The position numbers and the translations under genes are program-made. The notes under the pieces were generated by a model, which worked only from the letters and a program-made list of their open reading frames with translations, did not search any database and was not told the DNA's origin. Of a DNA stretch of 64,000 nucleotides, positions 49,940 to 64,000 are shown in pieces; position 1 is the first letter of the stretch, and every line of letters starts with the position of its first letter. Origin of the DNA: an uncultured Roseobacter sp. GTDB taxonomy: Bacteria; Pseudomonadota; Alphaproteobacteria; Rhodobacterales; Rhodobacteraceae. The DNA is taken from the NCBI RefSeq assembly GCF_947493125.1, contig NZ_CANLQB010000007.1, forward strand, positions 62,001 through 126,000, read 5' to 3'.

Positions 49940-50521
49940 TCAGAATCTCTCCATTTCGGCATCCACTTGGGACAAGAAGCGCGCCCTGCGCTGGTCCGTT
50001 GCTCGATTCATGTCATAAAGCGCCAGATACCGCATCTTGTCCGGACGGCACACATGCCAGACGGCGCGAGTCACGCTCTTTCTCGGGGGATCTCCGGCCA
50101 AAAACGCACGCGTCCGGGTGCCCCCATAGGTCGTCACGGCCGCCAGTTTTCGAATATGCCGCAGGTTCGGTCGTACCCTACCCTGCTCCAATCGAAAGGA
50201 CACCCCTGGCAGGAACACGCGATCAAAGAAGCCCTTCAGGACGGCTGGATAGCCAAAATTCCAAACAGGAAAAACAAGCACCAGCGCCTCGGCGCGGCGC
50301 AGGCGGTCAACGTAACGGGTCACCGAACCGGTGTTGGTCGCCTCCTCGTGATAGCCGCGCCGCTCCTCTGCGGTGAGAAGCGGCGAGAAGCCCTCTGCGT
50401 AGAGGTCGCAATCGTCGACGTCCCACCCCCGCGCGCGCAGGCGACCGACCACCCGGTCATGCAAGGCGGCGGAGAAGCTCTCCGTGCACGGGTGGGCAAA
50501 GAGGACCAGCGCGCGGGTCAT
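49940..50521 (-). CDS. Flavodoxin-fold NAD(P)H dehydrogenase, copy 2
   Basis: 193 aa, same fold as the next gene: LFAHPCTESFSAALHD for the phosphate loop and VFPVWNFGYPAVLKGFFDR for the ring loop. The two are recognisably paralogous (shared spacing and DLY-x-x-GF-x-P-x-LT motif) but clearly diverged. They may form a heterodimer or act on successive steps. The spacing to the FAD-oxidase gene is 2 nt. Confidence 0.88.
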   Translation of the reverse strand: MTRALVLFAHPCTESFSAALHDRVVGRLRARGWDVDDCDLYAEGFSPLLTAEERRGYHEEATNTGSVTRYVDRLRRAEALVLVFPVWNFGYPAVLKGFFDRVFLPGVSFRLEQGRVRPNLRHIRKLAAVTTYGGTRTRAFLAGDPPRKSVTRAVWHVCRPDKMRYLALYDMNRATDQRRARFLSQVDAEMERF

Positions 50522-50523
50522 GG

Positions 50524-51924
50524 CTATTCGGCGGCGCGGATCTTCGGGTAGCTGTACATGCGATCAAAGCTCCAGTTCGGATCGTCCCAGGCGATCATCT
50601 TGCCAGGATTGAGCAAGCCCTTCGGATCCGCTTCGCGCTTGAACGCCAGTTGCCGATCATCCACGGTCTGCCGCCCGCCTTCTTCCAGAGTGTAGCGATG
50701 GGGATTGAAGATCAGCGCACCTGCGTCCTCGTGCATCTGAATGATCTCATCAAGCCGCTCTTCCGTCGTAAATTTCACGAGGCTCAGTCCGGCAAACATG
50801 ATCTTGCCGTTCTCTTTCATGACCTCCAGATGCTGCAGGACCTCGGGGCTCAGCGCATCACGCATTTTCGCGATCAGGTCGAGATGCTGGGGGAAGCCAT
50901 AGCGGACCTGCAGATAGGTGATACTCGGGTCAACCTTCAGAGCGCGCAGCGTGGTGTGGTTCCAGCCATATTCAAAGATCATGCCCGGCCCCCTCTCCCA
51001 GCTATGATCGTCGCTGCGATAGATCAGGCGCGCGGCGGGGCGGCGCTCCAAGAAAGTGCGAAACCCATCCATGGACTGCGGCGCGACCATGAGGGCCACA
51101 AGACTGGTCTCCCTTTCGACATGCGGAGCCACCCGTTGGAAATAGTCTTTGGCGATGGGTGCTTCGAACACTGTAGCAAGCTTGATCAGAATACCATCTT
51201 CATTCGCCAACTCCTCTGCGAAGCGCGCGGCCTCCATGAAGTCTTCCGTGGCGACAAACATCTCCACCCAGTCGTAAGCTGGCGCCAGCGGCATCTCGAC
51301 CTCGGTGATGATACCGTTAGTGCCGTAAGCGTGGCTGACCCGGGCAAGTTCCTCGCGCTGAAATTCCAGCACTCGGGGCTCCGATTCCATGGTGACAACA
51401 CGCAGGCGGATGATGTTACCCAGATCCCGAAGAGATCCCCAGGTACAGGAACCGACGCCGCCCGAACCGCCGGCAATGAACCCTCCAATCGTAGCGGTCG
51501 CCCAGGTAGATGAAAACATGCGGATTTCCTGACGCGAATGCTCTTTGCAGGCCGCATCGAGATCCTTGAGCAGACAGCCCGGCTCCACAACCACGCGGCC
51601 GGGTTGGATATCCTTCACCGCCGTCATATGCCGTAAATGCATCACGCATCCACCCGCCAAGGGCATGGCTTGGCCGTAATTGCCCGTGCCCGCACCGCGG
51701 GTGGTCACGGGGACATCGTTTGCATAGCAGGCCTTGAGGACTTCAATCACCTCTGCCTCGCTACGAGGGGAAACCACAAAGTCTGCTGAAACGTCATCAA
51801 GACGCGCCTTTAGTACAGGAGAGTACCAGAAGAAGTCTCGACTCTTCGCTTTGATGCCCGCCCCCGCATCCTCCAGATCCAGGTGAGCGAGCGCAGCCTT
51901 TGCGGCGTCTATATTTACAATCAT
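50524..51924 (-). CDS. FAD-linked oxidase/dehydrogenase (GlcD type)
   Basis: 466 aa. The PCMH-type FAD-binding segment is clear (VPVTTRGAGTGNYGQAMPLA; GGFIAGGSGGVGSCTWGSL). The C-terminal half fits the substrate domain of FAD-linked oxidases and ends with GLLNPGKMIAW, the usual family C-terminus. Reaction unknown; oxidation of an alpha-hydroxy acid or a cyclic amine is possible. It overlaps the amidohydrolase gene by 4 nt. Confidence 0.88.
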   Translation of the reverse strand: MIVNIDAAKAALAHLDLEDAGAGIKAKSRDFFWYSPVLKARLDDVSADFVVSPRSEAEVIEVLKACYANDVPVTTRGAGTGNYGQAMPLAGGCVMHLRHMTAVKDIQPGRVVVEPGCLLKDLDAACKEHSRQEIRMFSSTWATATIGGFIAGGSGGVGSCTWGSLRDLGNIIRLRVVTMESEPRVLEFQREELARVSHAYGTNGIITEVEMPLAPAYDWVEMFVATEDFMEAARFAEELANEDGILIKLATVFEAPIAKDYFQRVAPHVERETSLVALMVAPQSMDGFRTFLERRPAARLIYRSDDHSWERGPGMIFEYGWNHTTLRALKVDPSITYLQVRYGFPQHLDLIAKMRDALSPEVLQHLEVMKENGKIMFAGLSLVKFTTEERLDEIIQMHEDAGALIFNPHRYTLEEGGRQTVDDRQLAFKREADPKGLLNPGKMIAWDDPNWSFDRMYSYPKIRAAE

Positions 51925-53183
51925 GGCATCCTCATCAAGTGATCGAGTTCGGAGTAGTCAGGTAGGGCGCGGTCGATCTGTTGACCCGCCCGCACGACGA
52001 TACGATCGGATTGCGGGCGCGCGAAGAGCTCCGTCCAGGTGCGCGCGCGACAGATCACAAAATCGGCCGGCGCCCCGGAGGTCAGGTCAGGCGCATCGAA
52101 CCCGCAGGCCGCAGCCGGATTGGATGTGAAGGCGCGAATCCAATCGGTATCGGAATGATCCAGGTGGCCGATCCTCGTGGCCTCCCGCATCACCTCGATC
52201 ATGTCCATATCGCCGTAGGCGTAGAAAGGGTCTCGCGTATTGTCGGAGGCGAAGCTTACGGCGATGCCCCGCGCTTTGAGTTCATGGACCAGTGTGATGC
52301 CCCGCAAGCGTGGGGTACCGGCCTGCCGGTCCTGCAAGTAGAGATTGCACATCGGCAAGGAGACAACATGGAGACCTGCACGCGCGACCAAATCCATCGT
52401 ACTCGCGGCCCGGTCCTCGTCTTGCGTCGATAGAGAGCAGAGATGGCCTACGGTGACAGGTGCATCAAAACCCGTTTCGATCACCGTTTCCGCAATCACG
52501 CGGAGTGTTTCGGAAGCCGGGTCAAGCGTCTCATCCACGTGGAAGTCCGCTGCCAAACCGCGTTCCTTCGCGAGATCAAGGAATAGTCGAACTCGCGCCT
52601 CAATGTCCGGGACGGGATAGGCAACCATACCCAGAACACCGCCTGCATCAGCGACAAGATCTGCCGTGTGGACAAAACCCGTGTCCAACCCGACCCCCTC
52701 GCATCCAATCAAACACGCCGCTTGCAGGTCTATACGGCCTCGCCAATTGGCCCGCAGATCCATGAATACGGGCCATGAGACATCGTCTTGCGGCGGAATG
52801 CTATCGAGATGCGTGCGCACTGCACGGGTTCCGTGCGCATAGGCGCAGCGGAGGCTGAACTCCATGCGCTCAGCGACATCCTCCGCTGTCCAATGCGCCG
52901 TCCGATCATCGCCGACGGTGCGCAGTGCGCCATCGAAGCTTCCATCAGGGTTGGCCGCACGTGGCCAGATATGACCTTTGTCCAGATGGGTGTGCATATC
53001 GACAAAGGCCGGGAACAGCATCGCGCCCAGCATGTCGACCATCTGACCGGGCTCGTCAGAGATACGGCCTCGATCCATCGAAATGTCACACCTGATCAGA
53101 TCACCCTCCTCACCTATCAGACATGCAGGCACAGTCAGGTTGCACAGGGTCACATGCCCATTCGGAAGATCGAGAAAGTCCAT
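51921..53183 (-). CDS. Cytosine-deaminase-like amidohydrolase
   Basis: 420 aa, metal-dependent TIM-barrel hydrolase. The metal motif VDMHTHLDKGHIW, later ligands FHVDETLDP and VGHLCSLS, and the catalytic Asp region FASDNTRDPFYAYGD correspond to CodA-type deaminases. The substrate could be a pyrimidine, a triazine or an N-acyl amine. It shares a base with the permease gene (53183), so it is coupled to uptake. Confidence 0.87.
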   Translation of the reverse strand: MDFLDLPNGHVTLCNLTVPACLIGEEGDLIRCDISMDRGRISDEPGQMVDMLGAMLFPAFVDMHTHLDKGHIWPRAANPDGSFDGALRTVGDDRTAHWTAEDVAERMEFSLRCAYAHGTRAVRTHLDSIPPQDDVSWPVFMDLRANWRGRIDLQAACLIGCEGVGLDTGFVHTADLVADAGGVLGMVAYPVPDIEARVRLFLDLAKERGLAADFHVDETLDPASETLRVIAETVIETGFDAPVTVGHLCSLSTQDEDRAASTMDLVARAGLHVVSLPMCNLYLQDRQAGTPRLRGITLVHELKARGIAVSFASDNTRDPFYAYGDMDMIEVMREATRIGHLDHSDTDWIRAFTSNPAAACGFDAPDLTSGAPADFVICRARTWTELFARPQSDRIVVRAGQQIDRALPDYSELDHLMRMP

Positions 53184-54040
53184 TATCGGTCCTGCTTCAA
53201 GGCACTTTCATGCCATTTCCGCAAAAGCATATGACTGAGAAAACTCAGCCCGGCGAAAATGATGACTCCAGTGGCGGCAATCAGGATAAGGGCCGCAAAC
53301 ATGCGTGGAATATTCAACCGATACCCGGCTTCCAGAATGCGAAACGCAAGACCGGACTTAAGCCCGCCGGTTCCGGCAACATATTCTGCGACCACAGCCC
53401 CGATCAGAGACAAGCCGCCGGCAATACGAAGCCCACCAAGAAAGTACGGCAGGGCCGACGGAAGCTGCAGGAAGCGAAGCGTCTGCCAGCGGGACGCACC
53501 GTAAATGCGGAAGAGATCGCGCAGGTTGTGATCGGCCGAGTTCAAACCGAGCGTCGTGTTGCTAAGCACCGGGAAGAAAGCCACCAGCCAAGCGCAAAGC
53601 AAAAGCCCTGCGATCCGGCTGTCCACATAGATGAAGATGAGCGGAGCAATGGCGACAATCGGGGTGACCTGCAGAATCACGGCATAGGGGTAGAAACTCA
53701 TTTCAACGAGCCGGGACTGTGTAAACAGAACCGCCAACCCAACCCCACCAATCACCGCAACGGCGAGAGCCATCAGTGTAATCTGCACTGTGACGAGCAA
53801 TGCCTCAAACAGCATCGCCCAATCCTTGATCAGTGTCTCGAACACCAGCCTAGGGCCTGGCAGGATGTAGTGCGGGATCGCGTTCCAGACGACAATGCGG
53901 TCCCAGATCACGAGCATCAACACCAGAACCGCAGCCGGCAGTATCCATTTGCCAAACTTCTCTAGTCGTCGTCGACGCAACCGCGCGGCCTCATCCGCGT
54001 CAATCGCGATTGTGGCATCTGTTGGATCTGCGAGGCTCAT
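53183..54040 (-). CDS. ABC transporter permease (TauC/SsuC/ThiX type)
   Basis: 285 aa, six or so membrane segments (WILPAAVLVLMLVIWDRIVV, LVTVQITLMALAVAVIGGVG). The cytoplasmic coupling loop DLFRIYGASRWQTLRFLQLP is typical of the nitrate/sulfonate/pyrimidine importer class. It overlaps the ATPase gene by 4 nt. Confidence 0.9.
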   Translation of the reverse strand: MSLADPTDATIAIDADEAARLRRRRLEKFGKWILPAAVLVLMLVIWDRIVVWNAIPHYILPGPRLVFETLIKDWAMLFEALLVTVQITLMALAVAVIGGVGLAVLFTQSRLVEMSFYPYAVILQVTPIVAIAPLIFIYVDSRIAGLLLCAWLVAFFPVLSNTTLGLNSADHNLRDLFRIYGASRWQTLRFLQLPSALPYFLGGLRIAGGLSLIGAVVAEYVAGTGGLKSGLAFRILEAGYRLNIPRMFAALILIAATGVIIFAGLSFLSHMLLRKWHESALKQDR

Positions 54041-54813
54041 GCCGCTTCTCCCATAGCGAGATGGAGTGCGTCCGTCGCCTGTCGCGCGTAGGCTGCGTAT
54101 TCGGCAGAGGTGCGGAAGGTCTCTTCACGTGGATACTCGGCGTCGACCTCAAGTTCAGTGATGACGCGACCCGGTCGCGCGGCCATGACGACAATGCGAT
54201 CAGACAGAAAGACCGACTCGAAGACCGAATGGGTTACGAAGATGACGGTACAGCCTATCTTCTCCTTCAGCTTCAGAAGATCATTATTCAGCTTGAAACG
54301 GGTGATTTCATCCAGCGCCGCGAAGGGTTCGTCCATAAGAATCAATCGCGGCCTCGTAACCATGGCCCGAGCAATGGAGACCCGCATCTTCATACCACCG
54401 GACAGCTCTCGCGGGTAACTGGTCTGGAATTTTTCGAGCCCGACCAGCTTGAGCGCCTCGAGAACCTGATCTTTCACCTCACCGTAGGACTTTCCGCGCA
54501 ATCGAAACGGCAGCCAGACATTCTGCGCCACTGTCGCCCAGGGCATCAGCGTAGGCTCTTGAAAAACCACGCCTAGGTCACCGGTCTCATGCGCACCGGT
54601 CCAAGTGATCCGGCCAGCCGTGGGATGCAGCAGGTTCGAAATCAGCCGAAGCGCCGTGGATTTGCCACAGCCGGAAGGCCCCAGAAGGGAAATGAAATCT
54701 CCCTCTCTCACCTGCAAAGACATGCCTTTGAGCGCAACAACATTCCCATTGAATGTCTTGTCGACCTGCTCCATCCGCAATAGCTCCGACCGCGGTCGGC
54801 CTGGTGTTGTCAT
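54037..54813 (-). CDS. ABC transporter ATP-binding protein (TauB/SsuB type)
   Basis: 258 aa. Walker A GPSGCGKSTALRL, signature LSGGMKMRVSIARA, Walker B LILMDEPFAALDE and H-loop FVTHSVFES are complete. I start at 54813 (MTTPGRPRS) with AGGGGGAT upstream; a frame 10 codons longer has less support. It powers uptake with the permease and the NMT1-type binding protein. Confidence 0.92.
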   Translation of the reverse strand: MTTPGRPRSELLRMEQVDKTFNGNVVALKGMSLQVREGDFISLLGPSGCGKSTALRLISNLLHPTAGRITWTGAHETGDLGVVFQEPTLMPWATVAQNVWLPFRLRGKSYGEVKDQVLEALKLVGLEKFQTSYPRELSGGMKMRVSIARAMVTRPRLILMDEPFAALDEITRFKLNNDLLKLKEKIGCTVIFVTHSVFESVFLSDRIVVMAARPGRVITELEVDAEYPREETFRTSAEYAAYARQATDALHLAMGEAA

Positions 54814-54872
54814 ATATCCCCCTGACAAAAGACCGGGGCGCATCTTGGCGTCCCCGGCTCACCCCAATCCTG

Positions 54873-55874
54873 TCAGGGTTTGATTTCCTTACCCACCGAT
54901 TTGTTCGTGAAGTCCAGTGTGTAGGCCGCCTTCCAGTCTAGACCACCTTCAAGAACACCTGCGGCGACCATCTTTTCATAAAAATCGCCGATCACCTGAT
55001 CGGTCATGGATCCGATCCCGGTCTCCAACGCCTGCCCGCTGTCAACGATCCCCTGTTCGATCATCATCTTCTTCGCGAAGTCGATTTTATCCTGGGTCAT
55101 GTCCGGGTTCGCTGCCATGATCAGCTCATCGGCAGCGCTGCTGTCGCCATAGAGATAGTTGTACCACCCCGTCAGTGAGCCATCGACAAAGCATGTGACC
55201 TTGTCAGGCTCGTTTGCGATGGTATCGGCCATTGTCTCAATTGTCGTCGCGTATGACGAATAGCCGGCATCTGCGATGAGGAAGACGTTGGGAGCAAACC
55301 CTGCCTCCTTTTCAACCGCATAAGGCTCAGAACTAAGATACCCCTGCATGCCTTTGCCCTTGTCCGCAATGAAAGGCGCCGGGTTGAAGGTGTAGGGTTC
55401 GCGCTGTTCAACCGTGAAGCCATGCTCGGCAATCATCCACTGGTAGTAGGACGTAAATCCGTTGTCGCCGATGAGCAGTGTCAGATCTTTCAGTTCTTCC
55501 CAGCTTTCCGCTTCACCGGGATGCGCGAGAATGACCTGGGGGTGCTTTTGGAAAATTGCAGCGACAGAGACCACCGGAATCCCTTCCTTGACCGCGTTGA
55601 ACGCCTGCAACATGTCGCCGCCCATGTGAAAATCAATCCGGCCCGCCAGCATCAGGGCGCGGTTGTTGACCTGCGGGCCACCTGAGATGATCTCCACATC
55701 AAGTCCACATTCCGCGTAGGTGCCGTCCGCCACTGACTGATAGAACCCCCCGTGCTCGGCCTGAGCCAGCCAATTGGTTCCAAAGACGACCGGCGTCAAG
55801 TTATCGTCTGCCGAAGCGACCGTCGCGCTCATACTCGCCACGACAGCGAGTGTGGAAATTCGTGAAAATGACAT
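54873..55874 (-). CDS. ABC transporter substrate-binding protein, NMT1/THI5-like
   Basis: 333 aa with a signal peptide (MSFSRISTLAVVASMSATVASA). The opening VVFGTNWLAQAEHGGFYQS matches the NMT1/THI5 family, whose members bind pyrimidine-type or other small aromatic compounds. Start set at 55874 because the signal peptide begins there; the frame extends to 55946 without support. First gene of the operon, so its ligand is the likely pathway substrate. Confidence 0.9.
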   Translation of the reverse strand: MSFSRISTLAVVASMSATVASADDNLTPVVFGTNWLAQAEHGGFYQSVADGTYAECGLDVEIISGGPQVNNRALMLAGRIDFHMGGDMLQAFNAVKEGIPVVSVAAIFQKHPQVILAHPGEAESWEELKDLTLLIGDNGFTSYYQWMIAEHGFTVEQREPYTFNPAPFIADKGKGMQGYLSSEPYAVEKEAGFAPNVFLIADAGYSSYATTIETMADTIANEPDKVTCFVDGSLTGWYNYLYGDSSAADELIMAANPDMTQDKIDFAKKMMIEQGIVDSGQALETGIGSMTDQVIGDFYEKMVAAGVLEGGLDWKAAYTLDFTNKSVGKEIKP

Positions 55875-56086
55875 TGCAATCTCCAAGACGTGATTTTCGT
55901 CAATCGTTCGGAGCGCGCAGATCAAAAGGAAGCCACACCCTGCCAATTTGATGACATAGTTTCATGTTCGCTCAATTTCTGAGCGATTTCCACAATTCTG
56001 TTGGAAATTTCATCAATGGTTGATTTGAGATATGAGAGCTGTGACGAGGCTAAAGCGCCTATTGGCGGCGCAAGCGATGGCACAGT
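55875..56086. promoter_or_regulatory. Promoter region of the NMT1-type catabolic operon with two inverted repeats
   Basis: 212 bp of AT-rich DNA. A perfect repeat CGCTCA-N5-TGAGCG lies at 55969-55985. It is followed at once by ATTTCCA-N9-TGGAAAT at 55986-56008. The tandem placement about 100 bp before the first ATG suggests operators. No regulator gene lies next to the operon. A weak stem at 56055-56071 (GCGCC-N7-GGCGC) may end the upstream signalling transcript. Confidence 0.5.
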
Positions 56087-56830
56087 TCAAGCAAGATGTG
56101 CCCAAGTCTCCACGCACCGCTCAAGATTCTCGACCTCGAAAACAATCCAGATATGCCGACCGATCAAAGACACGTGCAAAACAGCATGCCCGTCACCGGG
56201 AGAGCCGATCCAGATTTGGTGCGTAGGCGAGCCTTGCTGATCTGCCTCTGGTTCGCCAGCGGATGGGGCGCACATTTCGCGCAGGATTTCACAAAGTCTG
56301 CTCTGCCCGTTCTGGTGCATCGAACCATCCGCATGATGATCTACAATGGCCAGCGCATAGCTCTCACTTTGAGACAGCGAGGCCTCGATCAGCGCCGATA
56401 CATCCGCGGCTGTACGACGGTCTGCAAGATGAAGCTTCAGGTCTGCAGTCGAGAGGCCGATATCACCGCTACTGTGCATATCCGACAAAATCTCGCTGCG
56501 CAGGTAGATCACTGATGCAGCATCGCAAAAGCGCTCGAGCTTCTGACTTATGCGAAAGGCCTCTTCCTTCGACAAAACGTTACCAGCGCCCGCGATTTTC
56601 ATGATCCGTCGCTCGACAACATCGCAGATCAGAGACCTGCCATCACCGTCGCAAAAGCTGAGGCGACGCGGCAGAACGGTCTGGTCAATCTGCGACAGAA
56701 CAGCGGCCAAGCCGCCGTCATCTCCTTCAAAGATTAGACGTCCCGCTTCCGTGCACGGCGCAGGCTCACGGCCCAACTGTTCAAGCACGGTGATGAGGCG
56801 CCGCTCGTCGTCGCTATGTCCGTCAGACAT
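56087..56830 (-). CDS. Hypothetical protein, last gene of the GTPase/phosphatase cluster
   Basis: 247 aa, not recognised. It appears soluble, without a signal peptide or clear membrane helix. Two recognisable halves: residues 50-115 with LPRRLSFCDGDGRSLICDV, and a C-terminal part with VLHVSLIGRHIWIVFEVENL. It is 3 nt from the possible roadblock-like gene and runs in the same direction as the GTPase genes. Probably a partner protein of that system; no biochemical role can be assigned. Confidence 0.7.
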   Translation of the reverse strand: MSDGHSDDERRLITVLEQLGREPAPCTEAGRLIFEGDDGGLAAVLSQIDQTVLPRRLSFCDGDGRSLICDVVERRIMKIAGAGNVLSKEEAFRISQKLERFCDAASVIYLRSEILSDMHSSGDIGLSTADLKLHLADRRTAADVSALIEASLSQSESYALAIVDHHADGSMHQNGQSRLCEILREMCAPSAGEPEADQQGSPTHQIWIGSPGDGHAVLHVSLIGRHIWIVFEVENLERCVETWAHLA

Positions 56831-56833
56831 TGG

Positions 56834-57217
56834 TCATGCCTCGTTGACGAGATCCGTGAGCACCGCAGTTGCCGCCTCCATGATCTCCACCAGAGGAGTC
56901 GCAAGATCGCAAACGAGGAACAAGGCTTCGTTGTCGACTTCAAGCGACTTCAAATAGCAAATGGCCGATCCCCTCACGATGCTGATTGCTCCGAAGGGCG
57001 CACGCTGGTTGTCGAAGAGCTGCTTGGACAAGTGTTGGGCGGTTTGACCGCAGAGATGCTCCTTCGCCTGCTGGCAAAGCGCGTCAAGATGTTCTTGCTC
57101 GACCTTTTTGGAAGTGCTGGCCGCGAAGACGAGGCCCGTCGAAAGATCCCCAAAAGCTGCGATGTCACAACCTTTGAAGCGGGTTCGCAAATCGTCCAAG
57201 CGATCCTGCACTGCCAT
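56834..57217 (-). CDS. Small protein, possibly roadblock/LC7-like
   Basis: 127 aa. The alternating pattern (DIAAFGDLSTGLVFAASTS, then helix, then GAISIVRGSAICYLKSLEV and ALFLVCDLATPLVEIMEAA) resembles the alpha-beta layout of roadblock/LC7 proteins such as MglB, which act as GTPase partners. The match is by pattern only. Its place beside three GTPase genes fits this reading. The Shine-Dalgarno is weak. Confidence 0.6.
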   Translation of the reverse strand: MAVQDRLDDLRTRFKGCDIAAFGDLSTGLVFAASTSKKVEQEHLDALCQQAKEHLCGQTAQHLSKQLFDNQRAPFGAISIVRGSAICYLKSLEVDNEALFLVCDLATPLVEIMEAATAVLTDLVNEA

Positions 57218-57306
57218 CCTGGTATCCGACTCCGACGTCCCTAAGCCCCATTTTGCCGGATATAGCGACAGAACATGTCCTTCTGGTTAATGATTTCGCA
57301 CGGATT

Positions 57307-58236
57307 TCAGGAGAATTTTGGTGTGAAACTCGGCTCCTCTGCGGGATCAATACGCGGTGTTGGACGGGCGCGAACAGACTTCGCAACGGGTCGGCGCGGC
57401 ACGACCCGATCCACGTCCACTTTCGGCGCAGCTTCAGCAGCCACTCCTTGATCTGCTGTTGGGTTGGATGCATTTGCCAAAGCAGAAAATGGCTTCCCGA
57501 CCGTATCGCTGGACACGTGGTTTGCCAGCAGCGAAATCACATTGAGGAACTCGTCTACGAATGGCTCCGCTCCACTTTCGGCCCAAACGTGCGGATGATC
57601 CCCAGCATCTCGAGCCTGTGTGAGCGAGACCATCAGCGTATGCCGGAAGAGTTTCTCGGTCTCACGCCGAACCCGTTTGAGAACTTTCGCGCGATCTCTG
57701 TGGGAAGACAGCATATCGCCGCGGGTCAGCAGCAATAGGGAGTGTTCGCGAATATGCTCCGGCACCATCTCCCAAACGGATGCTTCGCTTTGGCGCCAGG
57801 CCTGCGTCGCCGGGCTGCACCAGATCACGGCGTCTGCAAGCGGAAGCACACGCTCCCACACCTCGGACGACATGTTGGGATCGGAGATTCCCGGCATGTC
57901 GATAACGTCGCACATCTTCAGGATCTCCTCCTCGCACTGAATACGGATGAAGGCGGTGTGCTCCGATGACAAACCCTCGAGGGTCTCGACGTCACAGGAA
58001 GCCTCCTTGCCCTCGAGATCGACAATTGTTGCCGGAGATGTCCCATAGCTGATCCACACCGGCGGCAACTGTGTGGCGATGACCTGAACGGGTAAGGGAT
58101 CCGACCCGATCATCAGGTTGGCCAATGTGCTCTTACCTGCACTGAACTCCCCCATCAGCGCAATGCGCGGTCGGCGCGGTTCAGTCAGAGCCTTCGCAAA
58201 TTCAGGCAGTTGCTGGGTGGATTGGTCAACTGTCAT
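57307..58236 (-). CDS. Dynamin-family GTPase-like protein (short form)
   Basis: 309 aa. G1 is GEFSAGKS (29-36), typical of bacterial dynamins. A switch Thr is near 55, G3 is DMPG (113-116), and G4 is TRGD (171-174), a variant of T/NKxD. The tail after about 240 is Pro/Arg-rich and looks disordered. It lacks the long stalk of full dynamins. It overlaps the longer GTPase gene by 4 nt, suggesting that the two proteins work together. Confidence 0.85.
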   Translation of the reverse strand: MTVDQSTQQLPEFAKALTEPRRPRIALMGEFSAGKSTLANLMIGSDPLPVQVIATQLPPVWISYGTSPATIVDLEGKEASCDVETLEGLSSEHTAFIRIQCEEEILKMCDVIDMPGISDPNMSSEVWERVLPLADAVIWCSPATQAWRQSEASVWEMVPEHIREHSLLLLTRGDMLSSHRDRAKVLKRVRRETEKLFRHTLMVSLTQARDAGDHPHVWAESGAEPFVDEFLNVISLLANHVSSDTVGKPFSALANASNPTADQGVAAEAAPKVDVDRVVPRRPVAKSVRARPTPRIDPAEEPSFTPKFS

Positions 58237-60311
58237 TTGGCGTACTCTCTGAGTGTATTCATGGTTTTCTTCAACAGCGCCGCATGATCGCCAGTCGCCA
58301 TCTCTGCCACCTTTGCCTGCAGCCGATCCGGATTGGCTTGCGCCATCTCGTTCAAAGAAGTGAACACTGATCGTTGTTCGGCAAGGAAAGCGTCGAAGGC
58401 CTCGAGGGCCGTGGTGCGGATCTCTTGTGCCAGGTCATCCCGCAACTCGCTCACAAAGGGATCGGTTTCAGTCTTGATCAGATCGTGAAAATTCGCGGCG
58501 TACGCCTTGTAACCGCGGCGATGGAACCACCACCTCTTCCACCAGCTGCCGTTGAGATCCAGCGCGATCGTCCGACCGAGGGAAACCGGGGCGGAGGCCT
58601 GCGGGGCCCGAGGTTGGGCGATGGTCATGTCATCTGGCTGAAGACCAAAACTCCGTCGGTACAGCTGGCTGAGCTCTGCTGCCACCTCCTGTGTAGCGGC
58701 TTCAAAGGTCGCCTTGCTTTTTCTGACGAGAACCTTGTGTGAGGATCCGAGCAACATCCGAAGCCCGGTTGGGTCGTATGTCCACGGCGTTGTATCTCCC
58801 TGCGTCTCCAGATGAACAATCAGCGATGCGGTCGCGCGCTCAAGAAAACTGGCCTGCACCCTGTCCATCCGATCCGAGAACTCGGCCAAGATGGCATCGA
58901 AACTATCCCTGATTTTTTGCGTCTGGGACGAGAGGATTTCGTCAAATCGCCTCTGTGCCTCTGCGCCGTCCAGCTTATCCCGACCGGGCACCCCGGTTTC
59001 GCGTTCCGAAATCCGGTTGCGCGCCTCAACCGCGCTTGTGAGGTTGAGCGCGCTGGATGCAATTCGTTGCAGCGTCGCTTTGGCAAGACTTTCTGCGATG
59101 CGCATCGAGATGGCGCGTTGCAATGCGGGCACGCCAGACAGGATCCACGCCTGTTTATCCGGATCCCGGAGCGGGACATCTCCGTAGAGACGTTCGAGGT
59201 CGGTGCTTTCAGACCAGGCCAAGAGCGAGTCCTTGCTGGCGGGTGGCAAATCGCTCAGCCTTCCATCCAGCACATGGCCGGCCCACAACGCACTGCCGAA
59301 TATGACCTTAGCCTCCTCGGGCCCCTTATGCCTTGCGAGGGTCTCGGCAATGCTGGCTTCGATTTGCGGAACCTGTGTCTTTGGGTCAGACAGCTCGTCG
59401 ATCCGGTTTACAAAGATAATCACGTCACGAGATTTCACGTGCGTGATCAGGCGGATGAGTGCCAGGTCGGTGGACGATAGAGCCTGATGCGCAGACAAAA
59501 CTACAACACAAATGCGGCTGTCCCGAAGCGCACGTATCGTGATCTGCTCCCGCATCATGAAGGTATCGTTGACCCCTGGAGTATCGCGTAAACACAAGCG
59601 GATCGGCAGTCCGGATCGTTGAATACTCAAGTCTGCAGCTTTGGTCACATCGGCGAAACGCCCTTGCTCGTCGTGCGAAGTGGGCTCGTCATCGTCGTGG
59701 TCTTCACCGAGGCAGACGTAGCGTTCAATCAGATACTGATCGACATACCCGTAGTCGCGGCGCTGGCCGAGCAAAAGCTCGAACTTCTGGCCAAGGCGCT
59801 TGCGTGACTTCTCTCGCATCTCCGCGGCCTGCGCCTTGATTTTTTCAAGTTCATCATCTGCACCAGCCCGGCTGGCCAGCTCGCCAATGCGCCCACCGCC
59901 GGAAACCAAACGATCCCATTCATTCTCATCGAAGAACTGAAAGGACGCCGTTTCCTTGAACGCCGGCGCGTCGGGATGCAAATGCAGAGATGTCACGACG
60001 GATGTCCAGGGGTTCACGTCTGCGGGCAGCAATGCCGTTTGCCCGATCAATGCGTTCACCAGCGATGTCTTGCCGGACTTGATTTGCCCGATCAACGTGA
60101 CGCTCGGCTCAAAGCTTTCCAACTGGCGCAGCAGACGGTCGGCCCGCTTTTTCGTGGCCTCATCACCCAAGATCTGCAGCCCAGAGATCGCGTCGCGCAG
60201 CTGATCACGCGCAACTGCAACCTCTTGCAACGTTTCCAGACCCGCACCGAGCAGTTCGGCCCGTTCCGCGTCTCGGAAGCTGTCGCGGTCGGATCCCTGC
60301 AGCGCGTTCAT
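58233..60311 (-). CDS. Dynamin-like GTPase (long form)
   Basis: 692 aa. G1 is GQIKSGKTS (75-83), G3 DTPG (243-246) and G4 NRID (302-305). About 300 mostly helical residues follow, as expected for a stalk. At 590-599 lies a Trp/Arg-rich patch (SWWKRWWFHRRGYKAY) that could be a membrane-inserting paddle. AGGAGGGAAGAC precedes the ATG. Bacterial dynamins remodel or protect membranes; here pairing with the short form resembles two-gene dynamin systems. Confidence 0.87.
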   Translation of the reverse strand: MNALQGSDRDSFRDAERAELLGAGLETLQEVAVARDQLRDAISGLQILGDEATKKRADRLLRQLESFEPSVTLIGQIKSGKTSLVNALIGQTALLPADVNPWTSVVTSLHLHPDAPAFKETASFQFFDENEWDRLVSGGGRIGELASRAGADDELEKIKAQAAEMREKSRKRLGQKFELLLGQRRDYGYVDQYLIERYVCLGEDHDDDEPTSHDEQGRFADVTKAADLSIQRSGLPIRLCLRDTPGVNDTFMMREQITIRALRDSRICVVVLSAHQALSSTDLALIRLITHVKSRDVIIFVNRIDELSDPKTQVPQIEASIAETLARHKGPEEAKVIFGSALWAGHVLDGRLSDLPPASKDSLLAWSESTDLERLYGDVPLRDPDKQAWILSGVPALQRAISMRIAESLAKATLQRIASSALNLTSAVEARNRISERETGVPGRDKLDGAEAQRRFDEILSSQTQKIRDSFDAILAEFSDRMDRVQASFLERATASLIVHLETQGDTTPWTYDPTGLRMLLGSSHKVLVRKSKATFEAATQEVAAELSQLYRRSFGLQPDDMTIAQPRAPQASAPVSLGRTIALDLNGSWWKRWWFHRRGYKAYAANFHDLIKTETDPFVSELRDDLAQEIRTTALEAFDAFLAEQRSVFTSLNEMAQANPDRLQAKVAEMATGDHAALLKKTMNTLREYAK

Positions 60312-60485
60312 GTCTTCCCTCCTACACGACGGCGATCACTCAAAGACGCATGATCACACTTGATGTCTGTCGACATGACGGCGATCGCATTGCAACGTCA
60401 CTACTTGTTCGCGATATGAAATGGTGGCCAATTGTGATCTGATTGTGGCGATCCATCGGCGCAAATGACAACAATAGTTAGGCTT
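60312..60485. other. Spacer upstream of the long dynamin gene with a 10-bp direct repeat
   Basis: 174 bp between two same-strand genes. GACGGCGATC occurs at 60328-60337 and again at 60377-60386. The length allows an internal promoter for the dynamin pair. No terminator with a T-run was seen. Confidence 0.4.
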
Positions 60486-61616
60486 TTAGCAAGCGATACG
60501 GTCTTGCAGGTCGTGTTTGATTTGCAGGACGACAGTAGCTGCATCGGCAGCAGATCGCATGTCATTCTCCAGGCTCATCAGGACCACCTTGTCACTGGCG
60601 TCGTAGAGATCGTTGCGCCAAGTCTCGAAGGCCTCATCACACTGTGTCTGTTCGGCCGCAAGTTCGACGAGATCTTCGACAAGCGTACTGCACGCGCGGA
60701 GAACGTGGTCTGCAAGGTCTGGTCCAGCACGCGCGGGTGTGAGCGCTGGTGTTGCCGCAACAATCAGATCCAACGCCCCCTCATAGCTGTTCAATTTCGA
60801 AGGAGTTTGATCTTTTACATGTGATTTTTCTGCTGCCAGAGCGGCCGTTTGATCTTCAACGCCGTGTCTTTCGAGAAGCAACAGTGCGCGGTCCAGATCG
60901 GCGTGCCGACCAGATGCGGCAAGGCGCGAGACAGCCTCACACAAGGCCTTAACTCCACTGGCTGCCAGCGCCTCGCCATTGATGTCAATGCCGTCGTTCA
61001 ACATGCTGCGGATGTGATGGGTCGACGTCGGAAAGAAGCTATGGAATTCCTCAGAGGCGATGGTCTGCAAGGCCCCGATCCGCTCAGACAGCAGGCCCTT
61101 AGCAGCCGGGATGTCTGCCTTGGTCAATACCAGAAAACTATGATCCTTGAGATAGTCAGGCGCATTTTTCCAAAGCTCGGTTTCATCCGGACCAAAGGTC
61201 TCGGTGCACCAAAGGACAATGTCGGCCACAGCGATGGCTCGCGCAACACTGTGCGCGAAAGCGTCCGCATCATCTGGTGTTTCCATGTCCACCAACGCGA
61301 TGCTCTCGAGCAGTGGAACCGACAAGGACTGGATGTGCAGATCTTCCAACGGTGCTGCGCCTTCATGAAGACTGTGGGTGAAACAGACACCGGCAGAACC
61401 CGCAGTTTGAGACTGCGCTTCAAATTGCCCCAACATCGCACCACAGATCTGAGATTTTCCCACGTTTTTTGGGCCAAGAACGAAAATGCGCACACCGCCG
61501 CTCAACCGGCTTCGCAGATCCTCAGCCTGCGCCCGGACTGACGGCGGAAGATCGGCTTGTGACAGGAGACGCTCCAGCCGCGCGATCACCGTCGGTGCCG
61601 AAGCGTCATCCAACAC
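60486..61616 (-). CDS. P-loop GTPase-like protein with degenerate G3
   Basis: 376 aa. G1 GPKNVGKS (48-55) and G4 TKAD (165-168) are present, but the G3 site reads DMETP (110-114) and lacks the Gly of DxxG. The general order resembles the two dynamin-like proteins downstream. The C-terminal half is helical. It overlaps the phosphatase gene by 11 nt. It may bind GTP with poor hydrolysis and act as a regulatory partner. Confidence 0.8.
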   Translation of the reverse strand: MLDDASAPTVIARLERLLSQADLPPSVRAQAEDLRSRLSGGVRIFVLGPKNVGKSQICGAMLGQFEAQSQTAGSAGVCFTHSLHEGAAPLEDLHIQSLSVPLLESIALVDMETPDDADAFAHSVARAIAVADIVLWCTETFGPDETELWKNAPDYLKDHSFLVLTKADIPAAKGLLSERIGALQTIASEEFHSFFPTSTHHIRSMLNDGIDINGEALAASGVKALCEAVSRLAASGRHADLDRALLLLERHGVEDQTAALAAEKSHVKDQTPSKLNSYEGALDLIVAATPALTPARAGPDLADHVLRACSTLVEDLVELAAEQTQCDEAFETWRNDLYDASDKVVLMSLENDMRSAADAATVVLQIKHDLQDRIAC

Positions 61617-62460
61617 GGCGGATCATACCCTCCACGGTCGCGGCGCAGCCATTGGCTTCTCTGGACCGGGGTGTGTTCAATTTGACAATCGAAAAGGAGA
61701 CATTGTCGAGGTCGGGATCCTGCAGGTCATTTAGGCAACCCAAAAGACGGTCGGCAATTTCTGCGCTCTGAGCGTCGCAATGCGCGGACAATATCTCAGA
61801 AATCTGCGTGTTGCTCAGAAACTGCAGACCGTCGCTGGCAACGATCAGGAGATCGCCGGGACGAAGCTCCAGTGGTTCTTCGGGGCAGTCAATACGTGGC
61901 ACCTCTTCGCCGAAGAGAACCGATGTCAGCGTATTTCGATCCGGGTGGTTCCGGGCCTCCTCAGCATTCAAGAGGCCAGACTTCATCATGAAGTCTATCT
62001 GTGGCGCCATCGAATGATCTTCATTCAGTTGCGACAAGCTCCCGTCGCGAAAAAGAAAGAGCGGTGAATCCCCGACCGAAATCCAGTACAGGTTCTGGTT
62101 TATGATCGCCGTTGCAACCAGCGTTGCTCCCATACCATGGGTTTCCGGGTGCATATCCACGTGTTGCCGTAGGCAGGCGTTTGCAGCCATTGCCGCGTCG
62201 AGGAGATTTTGAGTGACGGTTCTCTCAAATGCTTCGACATCCCCGCGCTGGAACATCAATTCGCTGAAGACTTCGGTCACGACTATTTTGCTGGCGATAT
62301 CTCCTGCCGCATGCCCGCCCATGCCATCGGCAAGTACGGCCACACCGACATCGGATCCCCGCGAGAAGTCGGCGATCACCGCGTCTTCCTGATAGGCACG
62401 CGCACCCTTGCTCAGCGCCGAAGCCGCATCGAAATCAAACGTCGCCGGCATCACTGACAT
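61606..62460 (-). CDS. PP2C-family serine/threonine phosphatase
   Basis: 284 aa, soluble. All main PP2C motifs are seen: GARAYQEDAVI, VLADGMGGHAAG, GMGATLVATAI, SVGDSPLFLFRDG, LIVASDGLQFL and DNVSFSIV, so the two-metal site should be active. It overlaps the FHA gene by 26 nt (17 nt if translation begins at the second ATG). It should reverse Ser/Thr phosphorylation read by the FHA protein. No kinase is visible in the window. Confidence 0.92.
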   Translation of the reverse strand: MSVMPATFDFDAASALSKGARAYQEDAVIADFSRGSDVGVAVLADGMGGHAAGDIASKIVVTEVFSELMFQRGDVEAFERTVTQNLLDAAMAANACLRQHVDMHPETHGMGATLVATAIINQNLYWISVGDSPLFLFRDGSLSQLNEDHSMAPQIDFMMKSGLLNAEEARNHPDRNTLTSVLFGEEVPRIDCPEEPLELRPGDLLIVASDGLQFLSNTQISEILSAHCDAQSAEIADRLLGCLNDLQDPDLDNVSFSIVKLNTPRSREANGCAATVEGMIRRVG

Positions 62461-63523
62461 CCGTCATATCCCATTTGAAATCCGAGCCGCAGAGCGCCAC
62501 GAAACGCAAAGTGGTCTCACCGATCCGGATCAGATCGGCGTGATGAAGTTCTTCCGTGCTCAAGACCGGGCGGGCATTTCGGCGGATGATGTTCGATTTT
62601 CCGCCATGGCCAATATAGAACTTGTTCTGTTCCTCGTCATACGCAATCGCCGCGTGATTGTGGCGCGAGATGCTGTTGTCACCAAAATCCAGCTTAATCA
62701 CTTGGTCATCACCGCGACCAATCATAGATGCACCGGTGAAGATGCTGAACGAATGACCCACGCCAGGGCCTTCAACCACAACCAGCCAGCCGACTGGAAA
62801 CTTTTCGTCTTGCGGCTTCGCCGTAGCGCCGCCCGTTGCGCTGATTGGGTCCTGTGCGCCCTGGTCCGGGCGGTTGAACCCCAGAAGACGCGTTTTGACA
62901 CGCCCGGCCCTCCGGCCCGAGCGACCGGCCGAAGAAGCAGGCACGCCACCATCTCCTCCGACTGTTGACAGATCAATGGGTGTTGCATCGCTTTCAGCCG
63001 GAGGATTGGGCTTGCGAGACAACTCCAGTTGTTGCTTGGCAAACTCGACGACATCCGAGGGTGTGTCTGCTGCCTCGTCGGGACCGCCGACCATATCTTC
63101 AGCGGGCTCGTCCGCAAAAGCAACTTGCGGCGCGTCGTCATTCGTCTCGCGTTTTGGTTCGATATCGGGTGCCATATCGCCCCCGGTCGTTGGCTGTGCA
63201 TGTTCCACGTCACGTGTCTGTGCCAAGACGGCCGCGATATCAGCTTCGCTATCATCTTCTGGGTCTTCGTTTGGCTCGCCGGACGTGCCCTCAGTCCCAA
63301 GGGCCGCATCCGCGCCCGCTCGATCTTCCAAGCCGTCCATTGATGGCGCATCACGTTCGGTACTGATTTCAGCATCGGAATCAGGCACTGCGAAGGGATC
63401 TAATGGAAGAACCCGGTCCTCCGCTGTTTCCATGAAGGCCTCGCGCAGTGCATCGTCGTCCAATCCTTCTTCGCCTGTGGCAGGTGTTGATTGGTTCTGA
63501 AAAACCTTCCGGAAGAGTGTCAT
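62435..63523 (-). CDS. FHA-domain protein with long acidic N-terminal region
   Basis: 362 aa. Residues to about 230 are acidic and low in complexity, probably disordered and rich in potential phosphosites. The C-terminal 100 residues form a forkhead-associated domain with SMIGRGDDQVIKLDF and NSISRHNHAAIAYD, the phosphothreonine-binding Arg and Ser-Arg-x-His-type core. GAAAGG 6 nt before the ATG at 63523 supports this start over 63550. Confidence 0.9.
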   Translation of the reverse strand: MTLFRKVFQNQSTPATGEEGLDDDALREAFMETAEDRVLPLDPFAVPDSDAEISTERDAPSMDGLEDRAGADAALGTEGTSGEPNEDPEDDSEADIAAVLAQTRDVEHAQPTTGGDMAPDIEPKRETNDDAPQVAFADEPAEDMVGGPDEAADTPSDVVEFAKQQLELSRKPNPPAESDATPIDLSTVGGDGGVPASSAGRSGRRAGRVKTRLLGFNRPDQGAQDPISATGGATAKPQDEKFPVGWLVVVEGPGVGHSFSIFTGASMIGRGDDQVIKLDFGDNSISRHNHAAIAYDEEQNKFYIGHGGKSNIIRRNARPVLSTEELHHADLIRIGETTLRFVALCGSDFKWDMTDVSDAGDV

Positions 63524-63597
63524 GTCATGCCTTTCCAATGCTACTTGCAACCATGTGTCCCGGGTTACCGAAACCTTGAAATCGAAAGCCCTTCCGC

Positions 63598-64000
63598 CTA
63601 GCCGCCCACGGTGTAGGCGCGATGAGCGGTCCAGTATCCGTAGTCCTCGCCGAGCGCGATGATCTGGCCAACCGTGACAGCGTGGACATCGTCGAACTGC
63701 AACGCAGCGTGGCCGAGAAAGAAGTACGCAAAGAGGATCACAGGGATGGTGGCCAACCTGCGCATTTGAGGTTTGGCCGACCTCTCGTTTGCTGCCGCAA
63801 CCACGGCATCAAATTCTTCCTGTGAAATCACCGGAGGAAGCGTCTGCCGCGCCTTTAGTCGAGCGATCGGATTGTTTGCCGGCAGTGATGTTTCCGACGG
63901 ATTCGGTGACGCCTCGGCGCATTCAACCAGCCCCCCTGGCGCTGGATCAGCTGCAGAGCGATCACGTCGTTCTCGTTCGACGATATTCGTCGGCGCGCCC
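63598..64000 (-). CDS. C-terminal part of an unknown protein with one membrane helix (cut by window edge)
   Basis: The frame stays open from the stop at 63598 to base 64000, so the GTG at 63831 is probably internal and the gene begins outside. About 134 residues are seen: a charged, Pro/Ala-rich stretch, then a membrane helix (LATIPVILFAYFFLGHAAL) followed by about 35 residues. It lies upstream of the FHA gene in the same direction. Its role is unknown; a signalling protein would fit the context. Confidence 0.65.
   Translation of the reverse strand, partial: GAPTNIVERERRDRSAADPAPGGLVECAEASPNPSETSLPANNPIARLKARQTLPPVISQEEFDAVVAAANERSAKPQMRRLATIPVILFAYFFLGHAALQFDDVHAVTVGQIIALGEDYGYWTAHRAYTVGG

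Follow-up and report, generated by a model that had tools for sequence, protein, structure and literature searches.

Introduction

Two adjacent genes for dynamin-type GTPases characterize the paired bacterial dynamin-like proteins, such as Cj-DLP1/2 of Campylobacter, BDLP of Nostoc, DynA of Bacillus subtilis and LeoABC. According to excerpts of one study, such operon pairing is usual among bacterial dynamins, heterotypic pairing was suggested to be fundamental, and general membrane repair was speculated for Cj-DLP1/2 and DynA (PMC6104087). The threonine phosphorylation pathway of the type VI secretion system (T6SS) encodes a Ser/Thr kinase, a PP2C phosphatase and an FHA protein in one cluster (PpkA, PppA and Fha), while the conservons, or actinobacterial G protein systems (AGPS; CvnA-D), encode a kinase, a roadblock protein and a GTPase together. 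Here, we compare with these systems an eight-gene cluster found at the end of a stretch of 64,000 nucleotides (the window) from the 4.83-Mb genome of an uncultured Roseobacter sp. (contig NZ_CANLQB010000007.1, here C7, bases 62001-126000). In a scan of named genomes, the nearest named relatives of this genome were Roseobacter species.

In transcription order, the cluster encodes a kinase (A), an FHA protein (B), a PP2C phosphatase (C), a degenerate GTPase (D), a long dynamin (E, hereafter also DynL), a short dynamin (F, or DynS), a small protein with a predicted roadblock fold (G) and a last protein, H. Like the paired bacterial dynamins, it thus holds two adjacent dynamin-type genes, and DynL has 2j68 and 5owv as its nearest solved relatives by profile. 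However, the short partner has only about 300 amino acids, a third, degenerate homologue (D) is present, and the dynamin genes are accompanied by those for a kinase, an FHA protein, a PP2C phosphatase and roadblock proteins. In contrast to the T6SS pathway, there is no sheath gene in the genome and no significant link to T6SS across the family, and the apparent client is the dynamin pair. Unlike in conservons, the kinase is a Ser/Thr kinase of the Pkinase type and the GTPases are dynamin-type or degenerate; since a histidine kinase-like CvnA and a small Ras-like CvnD are both missing, we rejected an assignment to the AGPS. MglA-MglB, Ragulator and Mon1-Ccz1 share the predicted fold of G, and possibly that of the C-terminal half of H, but the cluster holds no Ras-like partner. 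All of the parts belong to known kinds, but full-text searches of open-licence papers found no published work on the combination of kinase, FHA, PP2C, dynamin and roadblock proteins; papers returned by the narrower searches dealt with other subjects, such as MglA and calcium stores.

Results

Gene content of the cluster

The features are listed below in transcription order. Open reading frames (ORFs) were called mechanically, so that gene starts are approximate.

63598..64000, minus strand: A, C-terminal part of a Ser/Thr protein kinase (Pkinase, E 2.1e-28); the gene runs on past the window edge
62435..63550, minus strand: B, FHA-domain protein (FHA, E 2.6e-6); likely start ATG 63523
61606..62460, minus strand: C, PP2C-type protein phosphatase (PP2C_2, E 1.7e-11); catalytic motifs intact
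60486..61616, minus strand: D, degenerate GTPase with a conserved C-terminal domain; homology to F, weak MMR_HSR1 match
60312..60485, minus strand: D-E gap, 174 bases; patches conserved within the genus, possible separate promoter
58233..60311, minus strand: E, long dynamin-like GTPase (DynL), 692 amino acids (Dynamin_N, E 4.5e-13)
57307..58236, minus strand: F, short dynamin-type GTPase (DynS), 309 amino acids (Dynamin_N, E 1e-11)
56834..57217, minus strand: G, small protein with a roadblock/LC7 fold by predicted structure, 127 amino acids
56087..56830, minus strand: H, fast-evolving protein, 247 amino acids; possible roadblock-like fold in the C-terminal half (138-247), alpha/beta domain of unsettled fold in the N-terminal half

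The original prediction, made from the DNA letters and their ORFs, had described a same-strand cluster of overlapping genes and anticipated a Ser/Thr kinase nearby. Indeed, the seven complete genes (B to H) occupy 56087-63550, all on the minus strand and either overlapping or separated by short gaps, and the kinase spans the window edge; its likely ATG is at L002:11236, corresponding to window position 65235, which gives a protein of about 545 amino acids. In a Pfam scan, A, B, C, E and F exceeded the curated cut-offs, D matched only MMR_HSR1 (0.0088, below the cut-off of that family), and G and H matched no family. The cluster noted in the original prediction is confirmed, and with the kinase it is larger than first described.

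The eight-gene order is conserved in Rhodobacteraceae

Comparing gene order across Rhodobacterales had been proposed as a check together with the original prediction. A first BLAST comparison recovered the complete ordered set at 11 of 25 loci, the remainder being incomplete or diverged. Among 80 named Rhodobacteraceae loci, 68 showed the exact order A-B-C-D-E-F-G-H, and the cluster is therefore not a chance assembly. Ten further loci were cut by a contig end and only two deviated: in L111, G and H are missing although 9 kb of sequence follow downstream, and in L125 an F-type ORF occurs twice. These 80 loci are the best by score of at least 478 confirmed ones, so the sample is biased toward the cluster type of the window; in addition, the family hidden Markov models were rebuilt over two rounds from hits in the same loci, and members there were therefore partly found by construction. 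Some genomes occur in both an unnamed and a named set, and the 80-locus counts use the named set only.

Several genes overlap in most loci (B-C in 73/76, C-D in 68/77, E-F in 56/79). Gaps separate D from E (median 137.5 bases) and F from G (82 bases) over the 80 loci, and both gaps coincide with break points in rearranged relatives. The pairwise distance matrices of the eight proteins correlated at 0.70 to 0.93, with D-E the highest (50 clusters, window included). These values fit a set of genes travelling together; they are not proof of protein contact, because shared descent alone yields high correlations.

Two dynamin-type GTPases and a degenerate homologue

For all motif counts, proteins shorter than 75% of the window protein were dropped (12/73 kinases, 13/76 FHA proteins, 3/80 D and 2/80 F, but none of C, E, G and H), and a motif was counted wherever in the protein it occurred. 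In E, the G1 motif and DTPG were present in all 81 sequences and NR[IV]D in 74 of them. Its nearest solved relatives by profile were the bacterial dynamin-like protein 2j68 (E 2.5e-10) and 5owv (E 7.8e-10), which we take to be a Campylobacter DLP. The C-terminal region of E carries a WW-x2-[WF]W patch in 80/81 sequences, the Trp/Arg patch already noticed in the original prediction, which is suggestive of a membrane-binding tip.

F consists of a G domain and a poorly conserved tail, and its gene overlaps E by 4 bases. G-x4-GK[ST] was found in 79/79 sequences, and D[MLI]PG and the G4 pattern in 58/79 each. With Dynamin_N above the cut-off and with G1, G3 and G4 motifs, both E and F are, as judged from sequence, dynamin-type GTPases at the domain level; a full trunk would not fit into the roughly 300 amino acids of F.

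D is homologous to F, as profile alignment with hhalign gave an E value of 6.3e-29 over 189 columns, whereas the matches D-E (8.6e-6) and F-E (3.6e-5) were far weaker. G-x4-GK[ST] was retained in 65/78 D sequences and [TN]KxD in 35/78. DxPG was found in only 1/78, so that D lacks an intact set of dynamin G motifs, in agreement with the degenerate G3 read at the outset. Eight of 26 D members matched Dynamin_N at E 0.01 or better, and the D protein of locus L152 exceeded the cut-off.

A kinase, an FHA protein and a phosphatase with conserved site residues

The kinase motifs V[IVL]KE, HRD and DFG were present in all 62 homologues. In the phosphatase, DG[MV]GGH and SDG were conserved in 78/78 sequences, so that at this level it looks as active as first proposed; its score against the Stp1 model was 148 bits, below the cut-off of 230. 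The FHA domain of B has IGR in 60/64 and S[IV]SR in 61/64 sequences, the residues of the phospho-threonine site. Judged by these active-site and phospho-threonine-site motifs, A, C and B would qualify as a kinase, a PP2C phosphatase and their FHA partner.

The long N terminus of B is poorly conserved, with the exception of a motif, R-x-K-T-R-L-x-G-F, that precedes the FHA domain. This motif was found in its strict form in 59/64 sequences and in a relaxed form (TR[LIVM].[GA][FY]) in 64/64, at a median of 57 residues upstream of IGRG (55 sequences carrying both). In GarA/OdhI, a phospho-threonine is bound by the protein's own FHA domain, and by analogy the threonine of this motif could be a phospho-threonine bound by the FHA domain of B. 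A search for KTRLLGF sites elsewhere in the genome was uninformative, with two matches compared to one in the reversed control.

A hydrophobic segment near the kinase C terminus occurs in 16/62 sequences, the window included (Roseobacter, Roseovarius, Yoonia, Loktanella, Actibacterium and L111). We therefore rejected a membrane anchor as a general feature of the kinase. By our own reading, the kinase of another locus, L155, ends in a PDZ-like tail; L156 ends with an open ORF, preceding its FHA gene, that resembles this tail and may stem from a kinase cut off there.

G is predicted to be a roadblock protein

By sequence, no roadblock family and no consistent Pfam match was found for G (61 members), and its profile gave only weak phospholipase A2 matches (E 0.084 or worse) against the sequences of the PDB. 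Its AF2 model, predicted from 61 sequences, reached a pLDDT of 92.3. The model matched 3kye_B in Foldseek (E 2.7e-6, TM 0.80) and 3kye_C in VIA (Z 17.4, root mean square deviation [rmsd] 2.1, 118 aligned); further structural matches include MglB, Ragulator and archaeal roadblocks. The small protein guessed to be roadblock-like in the original prediction is thus confidently predicted to adopt a roadblock/LC7 fold.

The model of H reached a pLDDT of 88.3 and a pTM of 0.66. The best VIA match of its C-terminal half was 9h4q_c (Z 7.4, rmsd 5.0, 98 aligned), and most of the 50 VIA rows were roadblock, Ragulator or Rag chains. This half (138-247) may be roadblock-like; the call is not safe, because unrelated folds scored nearly as high (phytochrome 6.5 and 6.3, OXA beta-lactamase 6.2 and 6.1). 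With the whole model, Foldseek returned multi-longin proteins, the best being 9lol_A (MON1A-CCZ1; E 3.9e-4, TM 0.24). The N-terminal half appears to be an alpha/beta domain of unsettled fold. Neither half of H showed sequence similarity to G, and the two halves showed none to each other. G and H are the fastest-evolving members of the cluster, the mean identities being 0.32 for G and 0.22 for H, next to 0.33 for D.

DynL was found in one family and is patchy within it

At 1e-60, DynL was found in 101 of 394 sampled genomes of the family, and 15 of the 19 genomes of the genus carry it. In a sample of the class, 2/289 genomes had DynL at 1e-30, our own genome included, and in a sample of the phylum 4/299 had DynL at 1e-30, again including our own, and 4/299 had DynS at 1e-15; all of these belong to the same family. 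One additional weak DynL match in the class (genome G062, E 7.4e-4 at a threshold of 0.001) sits in an ORF read as a Der-type GTPase. Several genomes carry two different DynL copies. DynL, annotated as dynamin family protein, is also present in plasmid records from Leisingera (12), Ruegeria (5) and Rhodobacter (1), and a 19th record, from Calditerrivibrio, gave a weak partial match.

The cluster is built of separable modules

A less biased count drew on 80 of the 101 DynL genomes and asked whether a PP2C hit lay no more than 6 kb, and a G hit no more than 8 kb, from DynL. Among the 101 DynL loci, 57 had both PP2C and G, 16 G only, 1 PP2C only (contig end unchecked) and 27 neither. Conversely, 71 of 77 G hits lay near a DynL.

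Some of the G-only loci have a PP2C just outside the distance limit, such as L152 and L153, in which the order is E-F-G-H-D with A-B-C alongside. L154 reads EFGH-E-D-ABC, with a second E, and L157, at a contig end, H-E-D-A-B-C. In L158, L159 and L163, a DSP-type phosphatase (PF22785; E 3.3e-18, 2.5e-20 and 7.5e-21, respectively) is found with G, H and E-F. In both L158 and L159, the interval between H and E holds a P-loop protein with a match to ABC_tran, and in L163 it holds one ORF. L054 similarly has a DSP-type phosphatase and an ABC-like P-loop protein, G, H and an F-type gene beside an E-F pair. No PP2C was present within the stretch read at these four loci, and three of the four genomes (G256, G411 and G037) gave zero PP2C hits genome-wide at 1e-40. 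The occurrence of a non-homologous, DSP-type phosphatase where PP2C was not found, together with the recurrence of the A-B-C block beside dynamins in rearranged clusters, argues that phospho-control is a real theme. Overall, the kinase-FHA-PP2C block, the degenerate GTPase, the dynamin pair and the G-H (putative roadblock) pair recur as separable modules.

Dynamin genes are multiplied in two loci: L161 has three consecutive E-F pairs followed by G, and L160 has three E and two F genes together with G and H.

Neighbouring genes and the D-E gap

Downstream of H, an NMT1-type transporter operon lies on the same strand at 51921-55946 of the window. It comprises an NMT1/THI5-like binding protein, an ABC ATPase (labelled from its sequence, unscanned), a permease and an amidohydrolase, and looks as if it serves to import and process a compound resembling pyrimidine or thiamine. 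Beyond the kinase, the ORFs, read by eye, appear to serve amino-acid metabolism and transport. Flanks vary among the 80 loci, the commonest flank family, which reads as ABC-type ATPases, being present in 21. An MreB-like gene lies 100-226 bases past the cluster in L070, L079, L087, L116 and L137, followed in L070 by MreC- and MreD-like genes (names given from the sequences).

An alignment of the D-E gap from eight Roseobacter sequences shows conserved patches around CACAAT-like elements, and positions 60312-60485 may hold a promoter of their own for E-F-G-H. In a scan for consensus promoters and terminators, sites were no more frequent than in shuffles, and Rfam gave zero matches across window positions 50000-64000.

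Discussion

We favour the reading that the dynamin pair is gated by a phosphorylation switch and by roadblock adaptors, and we put its probability at about 55%. E combines a GTPase domain and a long C-terminal region with a Trp-rich patch that probably touches the membrane, and F, whose gene overlaps that of E, would be its partner with a GTPase domain. D, a degenerate and presumably inactive homologue of F, is probably an adaptor GTPase. The kinase and the phosphatase would set the phosphorylation state of proteins of the cluster itself, most likely at the conserved threonine of the B motif. Phosphorylation would open or close B, which could act as an on/off clutch for D or for the dynamins, and assembly or membrane recruitment of the dynamin pair would be set through B. 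G, perhaps with H, may form a platform for one of the three GTPases or regulate its nucleotide cycle. The output would be tethering or remodelling of the cytoplasmic membrane in response to a cue.

Several observations weigh against this reading. Of the 82 PP2C hits, 23 were not near a DynL, and the 27 DynL loci mentioned above have neither PP2C nor G nearby. In L155, the 15 kb read contain a kinase, FHA, PP2C, D, G and H but no dynamin; L156 has an FHA-PP2C-D block and a G-H block about 12 kb apart and distant from the two dynamin pairs of that genome. L143 is a lone kinase-PP2C pair without FHA or dynamin, in a genome (G018) that also has two clusters. Taken together, L155 and L143 raise the possibility that D-G-H is the real target of the switch. 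Conversely, the Roseobacter genome G011 keeps only E-F at the syntenic site (4.4-kb flank match, 78%); A to D, G and H were not found in the 20 kb read there, and the genome has no PP2C hit. Since E-F occurs alone and A-B-C-D-G-H occurs without E-F, the dynamins and the control block seem able to exist independently of each other. Furthermore, no transmembrane segment is generally conserved, the hydrophobic kinase tail being limited to a minority of homologues; the fold of H is weakly supported; the phospho-site of B is a conserved motif only; and no cluster member with a known phenotype was found.

A stronger form of the preferred reading would give the roadblock proteins the leading role: G and H, gated by the kinase-FHA-PP2C relay, would set the nucleotide or assembly state of the dynamin-type GTPase trio and thereby switch membrane remodelling, as a bacterial counterpart of the eukaryotic roadblock/longin platforms Ragulator and Mon1-Ccz1. 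We regard this version as tentative, with odds of being right well short of even. Instead of a membrane remodeller, the parts could also form a polarity or signalling circuit in which the roadblock proteins and the kinase regulate the GTPases as positioning switches, like MglA-MglB or actinobacterial conservons. Operons with a kinase, a roadblock protein and a GTPase exist in conservons, as described in excerpts of one paper (PMC13343842), MglB is presented in part of another as both the GTPase-activating protein and the guanine nucleotide exchange factor of MglA (PMC11016934), and the D-G-H-A-B-C arrangement of L155 does without dynamins. However, the eight genes include no small Ras-like GTPase, two of the three GTPases match Dynamin_N above the cut-off, and a pure switch would not need the near-invariant Trp patch, so that we consider such a circuit rather unlikely.

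Of the two outcomes offered by the original prediction, membrane remodelling or defence switched by phosphorylation, the parts can fairly be read as a dynamin system linked to phosphorylation, but placement in a defence island has no clear support. In an anti-phage or anti-conflict system, the kinase would sense infection and the dynamin pair would act on the membrane, delaying lysis or killing the cell. DynA of B. subtilis has been reported to confer phage resistance, as stated in an excerpt of one study (PMC8844932), and the patchiness of DynL in the family, the two different copies in several genomes and the plasmid copies in Leisingera and Ruegeria are in line with such a role. The phosphatases of the variant clusters match a Pfam family described as a polymorphic toxin system, and two flank ORFs each match the mad3, mad8, TniQ and AriA models. 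In addition, the kinase domain matches the PADLOC models PD-T4-6 (3.1e-40) and mad6 (6.8e-38), and MADS defence resembles our cluster in combining a kinase with a GTPase-like match (mad8, 0.0018). Nevertheless, these kinase matches look generic to Ser/Thr kinases. The curated NCBIfam model of the MAD6 kinase (MADS6) scored 139 bits against a cut-off of 460, and we rejected an assignment to MADS on this basis, the rest of the system not having been looked for. Among 89 flank ORFs (of 144 candidates), 43 PADLOC families were matched but none by more than two ORFs at 1e-10, in a survey made with no control set. Finally, DynL is kept in 15/19 genomes of the genus, and the relative that lost most of the cluster still shares its flanking genes, which is stable for a defence gene. 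A defence function is improbable in our estimation.

Least probable by far, and in our view highly unlikely, is a relic or orphan regulator of a T6SS. Kinase-PP2C-FHA pathways control T6SS in several bacteria, as reported in several papers (PMC5995506 and PMC3224232 among them), and T6SS is slightly commoner in genomes with DynL (33/101) than in those without (68/293). Over the 394 family genomes, the association between T6SS and the dynamin is weak at most (odds ratio 1.6, Fisher p 0.065), and 68 of the 101 DynL genomes lack VipB/TssC. This sheath gene (PF05943), the only T6SS gene searched, was also missing from our own genome, while the E. coli control was positive, and we rejected a T6SS regulator for the source genome. 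The original prediction had counted on finding no secretion genes just past the window edge and a conserved gene order. Both hold as far as they were followed: the order is conserved, VipB/TssC is absent, and no secretion gene was recognised in the 24 kb beyond the edge, whose ORFs were read by eye without a scan or a search for other secretion types.

The gene set described here, spread through one family, links two paired dynamins with both a full phosphorylation switch and roadblock proteins in culturable marine bacteria, so that the regulation of bacterial dynamins becomes directly testable. Natural variants with the pair alone, the pair with the roadblock protein, or a DSP-type phosphatase without PP2C provide ready-made comparisons. 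If the platform version were true, a roadblock module would regulate dynamins rather than Ras-like GTPases. Overall, the eight-gene set suggests that membrane remodelling in bacteria may be switched by eukaryote-like signalling.

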